IMG/VR virus record: IMGVR_UViG_3300007352_000036
Location: 1 to 32,978 of that record
Length of the DNA stretch: 32,978 nucleotides
Strand: one strand, 5' to 3'
From: a virus
How positions within the stretch are numbered: position 1 is the stretch's first letter; each line of letters starts with the position of its first letter. The notes beneath the pieces were generated by a model. That model worked only from the letters and a program-made list of their open reading frames with translations. It was not told the DNA's origin and made no database searches. Of the stretch, positions 21,232 to 32,978 are shown piece after piece. A program made the translations under genes and the position numbers.

Positions 21232-21296
21232 GGAATTCTCCTTTTTCTGATTTCCCCGCTCCGCTCGGAGATTACAAAGTCCCACGCACGTTGTGG

Positions 21297-21339
21297 GAAA
21301 ACAAAAAGCGCCCGCCGTGCAAAATGCACGACGAGCGCT
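21297..21339 (-). terminator. Rho-independent terminator
   Basis: On the minus strand AGCGCTCGTCGTGCA and TGCACGGCGGGCGCT pair with two mismatches around a short loop and are followed by TTTTTGTTTT. It separates the early/middle genes from the late operon. Confidence 0.75.
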
Positions 21340-21365
21340 CACTTCGTCAAAAACGGCCCCGCCAT

Positions 21366-21420
21366 TAGGCGAGATGGCTTCCTGCCATCATCGCCTATGT
21401 CAGTGAAACGAGTCACTGAC
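21366..21420. ncRNA. Two-hairpin structured element, copy 1
   Basis: Hairpin 1 pairs 21366-21378 with 21384-21397 around loop TTCCT with one bulged A. Hairpin 2 pairs GTCAGTGA with TCACTGAC around AACGAG. It matches copy 2 (23646-23700) with no gaps, and all stem differences preserve pairing. It lies between a stop codon (21465) and the terminator, in transcribed non-coding sequence. Confidence 0.7.
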
Positions 21421-21464
21421 GTTGCTAGGCCTGCGGAGTTATTTAGTTGTGCCTCAATTTTAAA

Positions 21465-21770
21465 TCAGGTTCGCCTGCGCGTCAAGTGTTGGGCGCAACT
21501 TTTAGAACGTGTGTTTTTTGATCGTCTTATTACTCTCATCCTTTCTCGGCTGGCTTTTCGATGAACCTCGCAATATTTGAATTGGCCAGATGGAGCGCCG
21601 CATTGGACACAGAGATGGTTTTCTCTACGGCGCAGAATAAGCCGCTCTACGCGTTCCTTTGCTTTCAGACAGAGTCCGCCATTCTTCCCGCAATGCGGAC
21701 ATCTCCCCCGCGCTCTCATCTTGATCTGCCATCTTCGTTGGCGAGAAACCTTTTCCTTCTTCTGGATCAT
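21465..21770 (-). CDS. Small basic zinc-binding protein
   Basis: 101 aa. Start overlaps the upstream stop as ATGA (21767-21770). Very basic, with two cysteine pairs and further ligands (C24, C27, C34; C54, C57, C67, H70: GRCPHCGKNGGLC, and HLCVQCGAPSGQFKYCEVHR). The pattern is of a small phage nucleic-acid-binding zinc protein. The C-terminus is Arg-rich (residues 70-101). It is the last gene before the terminator. No specific family is recognised. It shares its transcript with the 21767-22192 gene and is therefore under the structured leader. Confidence 0.7.
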   Translation of the reverse strand: MIQKKEKVSRQRRWQIKMRARGRCPHCGKNGGLCLKAKERVERLILRRRENHLCVQCGAPSGQFKYCEVHRKASRERMRVIRRSKNTRSKSCAQHLTRRRT

Positions 21771-22192
21771 ACCGCCGCCCTCGCCGCCTTCAATTCTTCG
21801 CCGATCCAGCCAACGGGCGAGAGCACCATCTTATGCTCATCCAGATACGCGCTGACGATCAACCACGTCAGCCTCTTATTTGCCAGGACCGACCGCAACA
21901 ACATCTCCAGTGCTTCGCGATCCGCCTGCATGATCTCAATGTCCGTCCTGTCTGGCCGCGCCTTCCCGCTCATCGGCGTCAAAATCGTACGACGAGACGA
22001 TGCTCCTAGTTTCAATACATCCGCGTCCCGCATCGTCTGGATGTGCTTCACGAAATCCCGCTTCGTCTTCCCCTTCTTGCCTGCCAGCAACTTGGCCACT
22101 TCATCGGCGGGCATGCTCTTGACGCGCTTCAAAAGTTCTTTGCGCCTTATCAGCGCTTCAACGTTCCTGCTTGCTTTACCTTTCGTGTTCAT
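21767..22192 (-). CDS. Small basic phage protein under a structured leader, function unknown
   Basis: 141 aa from ATG 22192. The site AGGAG lies nine bases upstream and a TTG three codons earlier is less likely. The protein begins MNTKGKASRNVEALIRRKEL, with a helical Lys/Arg-rich N-terminus, then AKLLAGKKGKTKRDFVKHIQ and a second half of alternating acidic and hydrophobic residues (EALEMLLRSVLANKRLTWLI). It has no zinc pair. It could be a nucleic-acid-binding regulator, but no family is recognised. The gene is the first after the promoter at 22374-22402, and its ribosome site can be masked by the leader. Confidence 0.65.
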   Translation of the reverse strand: MNTKGKASRNVEALIRRKELLKRVKSMPADEVAKLLAGKKGKTKRDFVKHIQTMRDADVLKLGASSRRTILTPMSGKARPDRTDIEIMQADREALEMLLRSVLANKRLTWLIVSAYLDEHKMVLSPVGWIGEELKAARAAV

Positions 22193-22194
22193 TT

Positions 22195-22367
22195 GTGCCA
22201 ACTCCTTTTATAACGCAAAGTCCTGCCACAGAACCGACATCGACGGGAGTTGGCACTCTTGCGGCGACACGTATCTCTGTGGCAGGAATCTGCCTGCGAA
22301 TATAGATTGTGGTGAAGACGCTATCGGTTAAATAATGCGTGCCGCCTTCACAGTGAGTGCCAACTCT
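22195..22367 (-). promoter_or_regulatory. Structured 5' leader with mutually exclusive helices (riboswitch-like)
   Basis: On the transcript three segments compete. The 5' arm (22355-22366, GAGTTGGCACTC) is perfectly complementary over 12 bases to the middle arm (22247-22258). The middle arm also pairs over 11 bases with the segment containing the ribosome site (22195-22205, GGAGTTGGCAC). A further 11-base helix encloses the middle arm (22222-22232 with 22276-22286). So pairing of middle with 3' hides the ribosome site, while pairing of 5' with middle frees it. Predicted transcription starts at 22367, exactly at the 5' arm. Confidence 0.65.
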
Positions 22368-22373
22368 GCGGTC

Positions 22374-22402
22374 ATTTTACAACCAATCCTTTCGTGGGTC
22401 AA
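22374..22402 (-). promoter_or_regulatory. Promoter TTGACC-N17-TAAAAT
   Basis: On the minus strand -35 TTGACC (22397-22402) and -10 TAAAAT (22374-22379) are spaced by 17 bases, each matching five of six consensus positions. The predicted start is about 22367. A TTGACA just upstream (22424-22429) could be an alternative -35 with a weaker -10. The LexA-type palindrome lies between these. Confidence 0.6.
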
Positions 22403-22405
22403 TCC

Positions 22406-22419
22406 AGAACGCTCGTTCT
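22406..22419. promoter_or_regulatory. Operator-like palindrome AGAACGCTCGTTCT (LexA/DinR-type GAAC-N4-GTTC)
   Basis: A perfect GAAC-N4-GTTC palindrome abutting the -35 of the downstream promoter, and between -35 and -10 of a possible second promoter. It matches the Gram-positive LexA core. A one-mismatch version (31489-31502) occurs in the other main regulatory region. Confidence 0.5.
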
Positions 22420-22425
22420 ATTTTG

Positions 22426-22863
22426 TCAAGCGTCAAAGAAATGAATTGGCGTAATAAAAGAGAAATCTCCAGCTTTTATTTTTTGTTTGATCTCAGGCCT
22501 CAACCCCCATTCATGAACATGATTCAGAGAAACACTCGGCCCCCCAGCACCTTGCGCCCACTCGCCTTTTCCAGCAAGAACGAGTTCACTCGCGCAACTA
22601 TGGCAACGAAAATGGCCATCCGAGCAGGAATGTACCTGGCAATAGTTCAAGCAGAAACAACAATCCCTGATTGTTGCTGGCGCTACTCGTATTTGAATCA
22701 AGTCGCTCATTCTGCCATCCACTGCAACACACGGAGCAGGCAACAACGCGGAACACTCTGAGCAATAAAGACAATGCTCTTTTCCGCCAGGAAGACTATC
22801 GGTGTCAAAGAATTCTATGTTGCCACACTCGGCACAAACAATTTCAATAAGATAGTCGCTCAT
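22426..22863 (-). CDS. Cysteine-rich double zinc-ribbon protein
   Basis: 145 aa. Overlaps the upstream stop as ATGA (22860-22863). Two zinc sites are visible: an N-terminal one with C10, C13, C31 and C34 (VCAECGNIEF and HCLYCSEC), and a central cluster RDCCFCLNYCQVHSCSDGHF with RCHSC, which looks like a phage zinc module. The C-terminus (WGLRPEIKQKIKAGDFSFIT) is helical. Base composition is lower in GC than in the late operon. It may bind nucleic acid. The gene ends directly upstream of the promoter region. Confidence 0.7.
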   Translation of the reverse strand: MSDYLIEIVCAECGNIEFFDTDSLPGGKEHCLYCSECSALLPAPCVAVDGRMSDLIQIRVAPATIRDCCFCLNYCQVHSCSDGHFRCHSCASELVLAGKGEWAQGAGGPSVSLNHVHEWGLRPEIKQKIKAGDFSFITPIHFFDA

Positions 22864-27367: not shown

Positions 27368-28345
27368 TTACTTCCTATTCGCCAACTTCCACAACCCGCG
27401 CGCAATGCTCAACACAGGCAGATTCGGCACAAACGCCTTCATCCCGAACTGCGCCGTCAGCGCATCCTTCAAAATCAGTGCGCCGCCACCGACAACGATC
27501 ACCCTCGCAAAGCGGCGATAAGACTGCCCCCAACGCTTCTCGATCTCGCCGTTCACCTCGCGGCCCCAGATGGGAAGCGCAGATTTCAACTCGCTCTTCA
27601 TCCGTCCCGCCCGCAAGCGTTCATCCAGCTCGCCGAGCGAAAACAAACCAGCGTGATTCATCAGTTCCAGCAAACGACGCACACCGATGGTGTTGCCCTG
27701 CGTAAACCGCTCCACCGCGCCCTGGTCTTTTACTACCATCAACTCCACAGTGTTAAAGCCCACGCTGATCACCCCCACCTCGTCCAACAGCGCATCCGCT
27801 CGCTCCGCCTGAATTTGACCAGCCTCATCCAGCACATAATCAAACAGCGCGCCCACGGGCTGGCTCGTCAATCGCACCTGTCCAACCTCCAATTTGTGCG
27901 CCTTGCCGTCCACCTCGAATTCGTGGACACCCTTCAACCACGACTTCACGCCGCTCTGGAATTCCTTCGCCTTCTCCCCCACCATCATCTGCAACGGCAG
28001 TCCCACCATCAGCGAGATCGGCACGGCGAAAGCGCCATGCATCGCCTGATAATCCGCCAGCGTCCCATACAGCAACGCCCGCATTTCAGGCGCGCCCGTC
28101 AAACGGTCAAAATCCAGGTTCTCCACAGGACGCCCATACTCGTGCGCTCCCTGCCCGATGTAGAACGCGCCGAAACCACCGCGCACCTCCATCGGACGGC
28201 GCTTCGCCTTCAACCCAGTCATCCCTTCCAGGTGTCCGCCCGCGCTCGTTGCCACCTGGCTCACCACCTGCAACCCGCCTGCAGGTCCCCAAACCTTATT
28301 CGCCCCCATCCCCAAGTCCTCGCCGATGTAGATCATGTCGTTCAT
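27368..28345 (-). CDS. ParM/Alp-type actin-like ATPase
   Basis: 325 aa. Start ATG 28345 with GGAG seven bases upstream and overlapping the translocase stop. Actin-fold motifs are visible: phosphate 1 at YIGEDLGMGANKVW (D10), phosphate 2 in GVISVGFNTVELMVVKDQG and an adenosine-type motif VIVVGGGALILKDAL near the C-terminus. The sequence GGFGAFYIGQGAHEYGRPVE fits ParM-like plasmid actins. Such proteins form filaments that push sister plasmids apart. With the ParR-like gene, it is a candidate segregation system for an extrachromosomal phage. Confidence 0.75.
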   Translation of the reverse strand: MNDMIYIGEDLGMGANKVWGPAGGLQVVSQVATSAGGHLEGMTGLKAKRRPMEVRGGFGAFYIGQGAHEYGRPVENLDFDRLTGAPEMRALLYGTLADYQAMHGAFAVPISLMVGLPLQMMVGEKAKEFQSGVKSWLKGVHEFEVDGKAHKLEVGQVRLTSQPVGALFDYVLDEAGQIQAERADALLDEVGVISVGFNTVELMVVKDQGAVERFTQGNTIGVRRLLELMNHAGLFSLGELDERLRAGRMKSELKSALPIWGREVNGEIEKRWGQSYRRFARVIVVGGGALILKDALTAQFGMKAFVPNLPVLSIARGLWKLANRK

Positions 28346-31335: not shown

Positions 31336-31352
31336 CTCAACCTTCCTTTCCG

Positions 31353-31687
31353 ATGAACCAAATGAACTTGGATGAACTTGGCGTTCCGCCCAAGGACCAG
31401 CCGCCCAAACCTTCTTTTAGACCCATAACAAATGAAAGCCGAAAGCAACCTGTAAGTACATCGAAGTTCATTAAGTTCATTAAGATATAGAATAATCGTT
31501 CTAAAATAGCCTTCCAATGAACCAAATGAACCTCGATGAACCACTTTTTGGGGGCGGCAACTACATTTGTTTTGTAACCAGCCGCCCAAAACGCACACTT
31601 ACGCGCAATAAACGCCATTTTTCCCGCGACAAAACAAAGTGAATCGCAGGATGCGAAAACATGTTCATTAATGTTCATTTGGTTCAT
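31353..31687. repeat. Four clusters of triple ATGAAC repeats (iteron-like)
   Basis: Each cluster has three ATGAAC units spaced 9 then 10 bases: 31353-31377 (+), 31456-31480 (reverse, one unit degenerate ATGTAC), 31517-31541 (+) and 31663-31687 (reverse). Alternating orientation over 335 bases of otherwise non-coding sequence between the replication ATPase and the next gene. The last cluster overlaps the ATPase stop. Confidence 0.75.
31489..31517 (-). promoter_or_regulatory. Possible promoter with overlapping operator
   Basis: On the minus strand -35 TTGGAA (31512-31517) and -10 TATTCT (31489-31494) are 17 bases apart, each with four of six consensus bases. The -10 overlaps AGAACGATTATTCT (31489-31502), which resembles the LexA-type palindrome at 22406-22419. 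The -35 overlaps ATGAAC cluster 3, and the predicted start lies at cluster 2. Confidence 0.35.
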
Positions 31688-32919
31688 TAATCCACCTCCT
31701 CATCGAACATCGCACCCTGTTCAAGATTTTCTGGTCGAGTAGGCGCGGCGTTTTTCGCCATATCGAGACCAGCGTCATCATCCCTCATCGCCGCCCGCAA
31801 CGCATCTGTCAACCCATAGCGGATCTTCGCCACTTCCAACTTGTCCTCGTCGAACACGATCACAAAACCTTTCCCCATACGATGGCTTGGAAGCATCAGC
31901 GTATCCTCGCAAATACTCCCCGCTGTTTTGGTCGTCAGGCTCTTGCCGCGCCGCTTCGCCTTTTGTTCCTCCTCGGCGTTCTCCTCCCCATCGCCCAGGT
32001 TCATCTCATCCATGACCTCGTTTGCCACCACCGCAATGTCACGCGTGAAAGCGTATTTCGCCATTCCGAATCCATTCAACTCGCCCATGTACAAATACTT
32101 GGAATACTTCTCGTTTTCCAGGATGGCGATCACCGCATCCAGCACACGTGCATCCAATCCCTGAGATCGCTTCATCACACTATGGTGATACAGTGACCGC
32201 GCGAACATCTCGATGTCCTTCAACATGGATTCATCGTCTTTTGCAATATATTTCAACGGCCTGATCACCTCATTGTGGCGGGTGCTGATCGTGTAATCGG
32301 TCAAATCCTCATTGATGCTGAATTCGTCCACTTGCCATTTTTCCAAACGCCAGCGCAGGAGTTTATTCACCACCGTCTGCCGTTCTGTATAAAACCTCGG
32401 TGGCAATTCCTGGGGGATTCCCTTTTTCTTCAATTCCAGCGGTGAATGCTGTGACATTTCAAAGGTCACACATCGATTCTCCGTTGCATCGTCCTTGAAA
32501 CGGCCATACATCGTGATGATCTTGGGACCGTACACATACGCCATCTCGGAACGTTGCCGCCTCGTCCCATCAGGCATCATTACCTCCACCATCTTCCAGA
32601 CTTTGCCCGTTTTCTTTTTATATCCCACGTTCAATAGCACGCCGCGGTCGTCGAACTTATCGCTGATGTCCATCTCGTCCATGAACAGCACCCCGCGAAA
32701 CGTGTCAATCGCGTCCTTGTAGGATGCAGTCGTGCTGATGCCCGTCGAGATGATCAGCCGATAGCACAAATAACCAATGCGGAGCATCACCTCCGTCTTG
32801 CCCGTGTCCGTCCCGCCCCGCGCCCGCAGGTATGGGATCGCTGGAAAACAATCGTAGAGATAGGTCAACATCACGTAATACGATGCCAGCCTGTACTGCA
32901 ACGGATTGTCGAAGAGCAC
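31687..32919 (-). CDS. AAA+/SF3-like replication ATPase, truncated at the contig end
   Basis: 410 codons visible. The apparent GTG start at 32919 is only the last codon before adapter sequence, so the N-terminus is missing. Walker A is ARGGTDTGKTEVML with the conserved GKT. Walker B is GVLFMDEMDISD. A sensor-type block follows (VYGPKIITMYGRFKDDATEN, then RCVTFEM). The C-terminus has a winged-helix-like segment (GKGFVIVFDEDKLEVAKIRY). Family B copy 2 (31732-31771) encodes GLDMAKNAAPTRP near the end. Most similar in pattern to helicase/primase-type ATPases of phages and plasmids. It is followed by the ATGAAC iterons, which fits a replication module. Confidence 0.6.
   Translation of the reverse strand: MLFDNPLQYRLASYYVMLTYLYDCFPAIPYLRARGGTDTGKTEVMLRIGYLCYRLIISTGISTTASYKDAIDTFRGVLFMDEMDISDKFDDRGVLLNVGYKKKTGKVWKMVEVMMPDGTRRQRSEMAYVYGPKIITMYGRFKDDATENRCVTFEMSQHSPLELKKKGIPQELPPRFYTERQTVVNKLLRWRLEKWQVDEFSINEDLTDYTISTRHNEVIRPLKYIAKDDESMLKDIEMFARSLYHHSVMKRSQGLDARVLDAVIAILENEKYSKYLYMGELNGFGMAKYAFTRDIAVVANEVMDEMNLGDGEENAEEEQKAKRRGKSLTTKTAGSICEDTLMLPSHRMGKGFVIVFDEDKLEVAKIRYGLTDALRAAMRDDDAGLDMAKNAAPTRPENLEQGAMFDEEVD
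31732..31771 (+). repeat. Family B palindrome, copy 2, inside the ATPase gene
   Basis: Arms TGGTCGAGTAGGC and GCCATATCGAGACCA. It is read in the same frame as copy 1 (14758-14791), giving GLD...TRP in both proteins. Confidence 0.75.
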
Positions 32920-32920
32920 A

Positions 32921-32978
32921 AGATCGGAAGAGCGTCGTGTAGGGAAAGAGTGTAGATCTCGGTGGTCGCCGTATCATT
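32921..32978. other. Illumina TruSeq universal adapter (sequencing artefact)
   Basis: The last 58 bases start AGATCGGAAGAGCGTCGTGT and end GGTGGTCGCCGTATCATT, the exact reverse complement of the full-length TruSeq universal adapter. They are not biological. The minus-strand frame beginning MIRRPPRSTLFPYTTLFRS is a well-known adapter artefact in protein databases. Confidence 0.97.

Follow-up and report, generated by a model that had tools for sequence, protein, structure and literature searches.

A leader with competing helices at the ribosome site behind an SOS-type promoter in a probable phage-plasmid, and its parallel with the c4 leader of phages P1 and P7

The window analyzed here is the whole 32,978-nucleotide stretch of the virus record IMGVR_UViG_3300007352_000036. 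Its recognized genes all have minus-strand orientation; to the left of the leader that is the subject of this study are those for capsid, portal, terminase, endolysin, and tape measure, and to its right are those for an FtsK-like protein and an actin-like partition protein (ALP_N, phrog_691; 27368-28345, minus strand). Because the latter two proteins are encoded, the virus is probably a phage-plasmid. The leader lies on the minus strand between a promoter at 22402-22374 and the ATG at 22192 of a gene for a charged protein without a Pfam match, P0001. The features of the locus are as follows, in the order of transcription.

22401-22429, minus strand: upstream promoter-like element, TTGACA, a 17-nt spacer with the LexA-type box, and a weak -10, TGGATT; string shared with related phages
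22407-22418, no strand assigned: LexA/SOS-type operator GAACGAGCGTTC, a GAAC-N4-GTTC box as in the host lexA promoter
22374-22402, minus strand: downstream promoter TTGACC-17-TAAAAT, a 10/12 match, with a start at A22367 placed by spacing
22355-22366, minus strand: 5' arm, sense copy 1, like a1 of P1, GAGTTGGCACTC (repeat scan)
22338-22346, minus strand: 5' strand of the 9-bp inner stem within helix A, pairing with 22263-22271 (folding)
22281-22294, minus strand: local hairpin GCAGG/CCTGC, competing for helix C (folding)
22276-22287, minus strand: 5' arm of helix C, second antisense segment, like b' of P1, TCCTGCCACAGA, 12 bp perfect with 22221-22232
22263-22271, minus strand: 3' strand of the inner 9-bp stem (folding)
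22246-22258, minus strand: middle arm, antisense segment, like a' of P1, GAGTGCCAACTCC (repeat scan)
22221-22232, minus strand: 3' arm of helix C, TCTGTGGCAGGA (repeat scan)
22195-22205, minus strand: ribosome-site arm, sense copy 2, like a2 of P1, GGAGTTGGCAC, Shine-Dalgarno (SD) sequence included (repeat scan and folding)
21767-22192, minus strand: controlled gene P0001, 141 residues, no known family
21465-21770, minus strand: P0003, 101 residues, Cys-rich (zinc-finger-like), its start overlapping the P0001 stop by 4 nt

Three helices, A, B, and C, of 12, 11, and 12 bp, all perfect Watson-Crick pairings, lie within the leader at 22195-22366. Helix A pairs 22355-22366 with 22247-22258, helix B pairs 22246-22256 with 22195-22205 and covers the GGAG of the SD, and helix C pairs 22276-22287 with 22221-22232; the middle arm is common to A and B, and helix C crosses both. 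The original prediction, made from the sequence of the window, had described a three-arm family with two arms competing for the middle arm, an 11-base helix around the middle arm, and a small local hairpin; the competing arms and the hairpin were found as described, and the surrounding helix is perfect, but its length is 12 bp rather than 11. The helices are not a chance occurrence: when perfect inverted repeats of at least 11 bp were counted in 3000 dinucleotide shuffles of the leader, one was present in 8 and two in none. The observation of alternative pairings stands as a whole. Elsewhere in the window, only four perfect inverted repeats reach this size within ∼200 nt, none in triple form, and a sense/antisense/sense triple (9-mers or more, within 220 nt) is present once, in the leader, compared with 2 of 60 shuffled windows.

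As DNA, the leader was found only as itself in its own genome, 60 relatives, and 50,697 phage records. Helices A, B, and C are without covariation support because the collections searched contain no homologue of the leader. A search for the 10-mer inverted repeat at 90-120-nt spacing gave four loci, all of which were chance-like and were rejected. The host genome contains no further sense copy of GGAGTTGGCAC, and hence no second target of a trans-acting RNA was found there.

The promoter region reads CTTGACAAAATAGAACGAGCGTTCTGGATTGACC. The original prediction had transcription beginning exactly with the 5' arm; the promoter for this, TTGACC-17-TAAAAT, is present, but the exact start would hold for one of two candidates, A22367, which is predicted by a 7-nt rule. 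The upstream element (TTGACA-17-TGGATT), whose -10 is poor in the window, would start transcription ∼27 nt before A22367. The promoter also carries the LexA-type box, which the original prediction overlooked. The end of the box is 4 bp from the second -35, and LexA bound to the box would be near enough to interfere with the second promoter. The string CTTGACAAAATAGAACGAGCGTTCT (22406-22430) is also present in related phage contigs, where it is accompanied by a -10 of TAAAAT or TACAAT.

GAAC-N4-GTTC is known from Firmicutes and Actinobacteria as the LexA motif (PMC3323433). In the host, the promoter of the lexA gene (L031) is TTGACA-CAGAACGCCTGTTCGAG-TATAAA, given also as GAACGCCTGTTC, and that of the recA gene (L035) is TTGACT-ACTCGAACATCTGTGC-TATACT. 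With up to 3 mismatches, TTGACAAAATAGAACGNNCGTTCT is present at ∼130 places distributed over 83 of the 396 genomes from the host's class, versus 7 places for a reversed control pattern in the same class genomes, and the genes behind the combination of TTGACA and box in the class include two RecA-like and two UvrB-like protein starts, as read by eye from their N termini. It should be noted that, on its own, GAAC-N4-GTTC shows hardly any enrichment in the host genome (51 versus 43 in controls) and is clearly enriched only together with TTGACA. The promoter in the window thus has the host LexA box, and because the same box is found at host lexA, and TTGACA with the box precedes recA and uvrB across the class, GAACGAGCGTTC is, as judged by sequence, a host-type SOS operator.

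The RNA corresponding to 22368-22185 folds at −62.1 kcal/mol (z = −3.1 versus shuffles). The free minimum of the RNA 22367-22170 (−67.2 kcal/mol) contains helix A and the inner 9-bp stem, as compared with −59.6 kcal/mol when the RNA is forced into helix B and −58.4 kcal/mol when it is forced into helix C; helix C could in principle form a pseudoknot with A or B, and these energies are for folds free of pseudoknots. In the ensemble of the full-length RNA, helix A has a probability of ∼1; of the four SD bases (GGAG), three have unpaired probabilities of at least 0.78. RNAs that start past the 5' arm (at 22354, 22346, or 22300) fold with helix B, and the SD is hidden. The folding of prefixes shows that helix A can form once the middle arm has been made, ahead of the ribosome-site arm. 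With helix A and a mostly open SD in the full RNA and helix B in the 5'-shortened RNAs, the full transcript is predicted to be on and shortened transcripts are predicted to be off. Both of the expected conformers are seen in the computed folds, B emerging from RNAs without the 5' arm, and the mutual exclusivity of helices that would hide or free the ribosome site is backed by sequence and folding.

Relatives of the phage provide a context for the promoter. Two IMG/VR contigs encode terminases with 73-77% identity to that of the window, and L036, a relative found via another gene, has an identical promoter string. Six related phage records with this string were obtained in a pattern scan that demanded it, and it should be recognized that the identity of the string is the result of selection, whereas the features downstream are not. 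In all six, a -10 of TAAAAT or TACAAT is next, followed within 6-8 nt by a strong hairpin whose top, GCGGGCCCGC, is invariant and whose arms covary, and then by an SD and a gene related to the terminase-adjacent gene of the window. For 15 pairs of the hairpin, the pairing is 96.6% over the six sequences, with six pairs changed on both sides; sliding of the register reduces pairing to 30-41%. Because the +1 hairpin with covarying arms is present in 6/6 records, the SOS-type promoter with a hairpin at +1 is evidently a conserved design of this phage group. The window retains the promoter and a +1 helix, but its leader differs, as does the gene there (P0001), and the antisense-to-SD arm is unique to it, the leaders of the relatives being without such an arm.

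These relatives lend support to a reading in which the 5' end of the mRNA is protected by helix A and the inner stem, or these are an RNase III site, and the match to the ribosome site plays no part in switching. Not only do all six have the same SOS-type promoter followed by the +1 hairpin, but the SD is outside the hairpin in those with short leaders, and the full-length RNA of the window itself folds with helix A and the inner stem. However, a role restricted to stabilization leaves both the perfect 11-bp complementarity of the middle arm with the SD arm and the 12-bp helix C unexplained, and it is regarded as unlikely.

Several further observations were made on the relatives. The +1 hairpin, with GCGGGCCCGC as an apical palindrome (L036 13015-13070, L039, L040, L041, L042, and L043), has no match in Rfam; it may represent a new family of structured leaders, or else a nested DNA site. 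L036 (13145-13642 and 17922-18695) and L040 (∼11656-11087 and ∼8039-7446, minus strand) each have a pair of paralogues of the terminase-adjacent gene, one of which is behind the SOS-type promoter; the window keeps only the terminase-adjacent copy of the pair. L002 and L003 were set aside as sources of covariation, the homology of L003 starting only downstream of P0003 and the leader and L002 having no counterpart of the region.

The original prediction had raised the alternative that the three related sites bind a protein as DNA. A repressor would here occupy the three copies of GAGTTGGCAC (and the two of CTGTGGCAG) around the start site. In favor of this, sites 1 and 2 show GAGT-N4-ACTC symmetry, site 1 is at the transcription start, and the exact 8-mer GTTGGCAC is found within the window at these three places only. 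Site 3, however, has half of the symmetry yet keeps the asymmetric center, the boundaries of the copies fit the SD and pairing, a second, distinct perfect inverted repeat surrounds the middle arm, and the promoter already has a recognized LexA-type operator; DNA operators are consequently a distinctly unlikely explanation. A metabolite-sensing riboswitch or an RNA thermosensor switching between helices A and B, the layout named in the original prediction, agrees with the mutually exclusive helices at the SD but is not sustained by other properties of the leader, and is very improbable. A thermosensor hides the ribosome site by default, whereas the SD-hiding fold is not the default of the full RNA, the SD-free fold being favored by ∼8 kcal/mol at 37 °C. 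For a riboswitch, no conserved, aptamer-like ligand-binding core was found in Rfam or in any relative; the leader has no match in Rfam at the gathering score, and at E ≤ 10 the only match is one snoRNA, judged to be due to chance. The view that the triplication is a functionless by-product of mutation, template switching having copied one 12-mer three times, can draw on the perfect pairing of all the helices, as in fresh copies, and on the lack of a homologue that preserves them, but it can hardly be credited in view of the placement of the copies at +1, in mid-leader, and on the SD, the second 12-bp pair, and the very low chance rate in both the leader shuffles and the shuffled windows.

The reading that we favor, with rather more confidence than doubt, is that this is the leader of an SOS-inducible phage operon in which the ribosome site is under sense-antisense-sense RNA control, like that of c4-icd-ant in P1 and P7. 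LexA would hold the promoter down, and DNA damage would free it. The middle arm, an antisense copy of the ribosome site, would when free pair with the SD region of P0001 and stop its translation and also, through the 4-nt overlap, that of P0003. The 5' arm would act as a decoy copy of the ribosome site, starting near +1, that captures the middle arm during transcription, so that new full-length transcripts would be translatable. In transcripts or processed fragments without the 5' arm, the middle arm would be free to silence the site in cis, and the same fragment, as a small RNA, may silence in trans. Against a c4-like reading are the lack of homologues of P0001, P0003, and the leader in the collections searched and of covariation in the helices, the downstream order (C arm, then ribosome-site arm), which is not colinear with the core as in a P1-type two-site trans duplex, and the 12 bp of helix A, which, without cleavage of the RNA, would quench its action in trans.

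The closest parallel to the leader, which the original prediction overlooked, is the c4-icd-ant leader of P1 and P7 (RF01695, RF03163), alike in layout, without descent. Control of the P1 antirepressor by C4 has been described (PMC8198154). In annotated P1, a C1 operator lies over the tandem promoters P2c4 and P1c4, followed by a1 and b1, the 77-nt C4 RNA, and a2 and b2 at the icd ribosome site, and icd and ant1 overlap by 4 nt; the scan used here recovers a'/a1, a'/a2, b'/b1, and b'/b2 in P1 as repeats of 7-8 bp. The two share an operator over tandem promoters (promoter-like elements in the window), a copy of the target close to the 5' end, a structured middle with antisense segments, a second copy of the target at the ribosome site, with the antisense segment complementary to both the upstream and downstream copies, two genes with a 4-nt overlap (icd/ant1 and P0001/P0003), and a phage-plasmid setting. 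They differ in that the arms of the window are 11-12 bp, its downstream targets are in reversed order, its middle arm is outside the core stem, and its operator is LexA-type rather than a phage-repressor site. There is also no sequence match, and the Rfam C4 and c4-a1b1 models, which match P1 as a positive control with 68.8 and 51.0 bits, do not match the window at E ≤ 10. Of the characteristics of C4, an antisense segment complementary to an upstream copy and a downstream ribosome-site copy is present, but two target pairs in the same order up- and downstream are not, the second upstream target being a 5-bp match only. The leader may therefore act in cis, and perhaps also in trans, as c4 does, but it is not filed as a C4 RNA because of the lack of a model match, the reversed target order, and the position of the middle arm. 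That it is a sequence-unrelated counterpart of P1 c4, evolved independently in the phages of an unrelated host class under host SOS, in which the 5' decoy makes translation require an intact 5' end, is a tentative proposal and open to considerable doubt.

Other systems resemble the leader in part. In hok mRNA (tac/ucb/dcf), the 5' end and an SD arm likewise compete for one middle arm; control there is by 3'-end trimming and the product is a small membrane toxin, neither of which is seen in the window. By analogy, the CI RNA of P4 and IsrK of Gifsy-1 can be considered further cousins in mechanism. The CI RNA of satellite phage P4 is antisense to two copies, one upstream and one downstream of it, within its own transcript (seqA-CI-seqC) (PMC4825925). 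Compared by description, P4 is similar in having an antisense segment flanked by two copies in one transcript but different in acting by transcription termination, whereas the second copy in the window covers the ribosome site; the P4 stretch, scanned as a positive control, contains no repeat of at least 8 bp. The Gifsy-1 IsrK-orf45-anrP leader has alternative helices at the ribosome site before a small ORF and an antirepressor (PMC4825925), as does the window at its own ribosome site, but IsrK is an sRNA with its own terminator that activates in trans, and no terminator was recognized in the window leader. LexA-controlled antirepressors are known in Gifsy (GfoA/GftA), 186 (Tum), and N15 (AntC) (PMC3121763). 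These operons have in common with the window a LexA-type phage promoter and small genes that could trigger induction, but the window has a structured leader in addition.

Neither P0001 nor P0003 gave a match above cut-off to Pfam, PHROG, or NCBIfam models, and no relatives were found in viral contigs, GTDB genomes, plasmids, or phages; two short fragment matches (L005 and L006), including a match of only 12 residues for P0003, were set aside as chance, and an AlphaFold model of P0001 alone was of no use (pLDDT 47). The two genes directly precede the promoter of a late operon, and the leader from this promoter has a strong terminator at its end. The gene for the Q antiterminator occupies the same place in lambda. 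Because of this position, P0001 and P0003 are perhaps candidates for an antirepressor or late-gene regulator. If the favored reading is correct, RNA-gated prophage induction of the P1/P4 kind arose anew in an unrelated phage lineage, and the RNA gate is wired straight to LexA, joining two layers of control that are usually in separate operons. It would also provide a handle on prophage induction in a poorly studied host class, and related phages could be searched for their induction gene with the SOS-type promoter string as a tag.

At 21290-21485 (minus strand) there is a TTGACG-17-TAAAAT promoter, followed by an RNA motif, CGCAGRYCYAGC..UGGCGGRYC, a strong terminator, and then the lysis/head operon. 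The same arrangement is present in L002 (∼1010-1130), L003 (∼2355-2470), L040 (∼9415-9300, minus strand), and L042 (∼10640-10500, minus strand), and the motif is conserved, with compensatory changes. With a layout like that of lambda pR'-6S-tR', the element is a candidate antitermination control site. Elsewhere, ATGAACC/GGTTCAT repeats in both orientations are found beside the same gene at 31348-31690 in the window and at 6740-7084 in L036; they are candidate origin iterons or a centromere, and the ORF at 31337-31687 may be spurious. The right end of the window (32920-32978) reads AGATCGGAAGAGCGTCGTGTAGGGAAAGAGTG..., which we take to be Illumina adapter left in the assembly.
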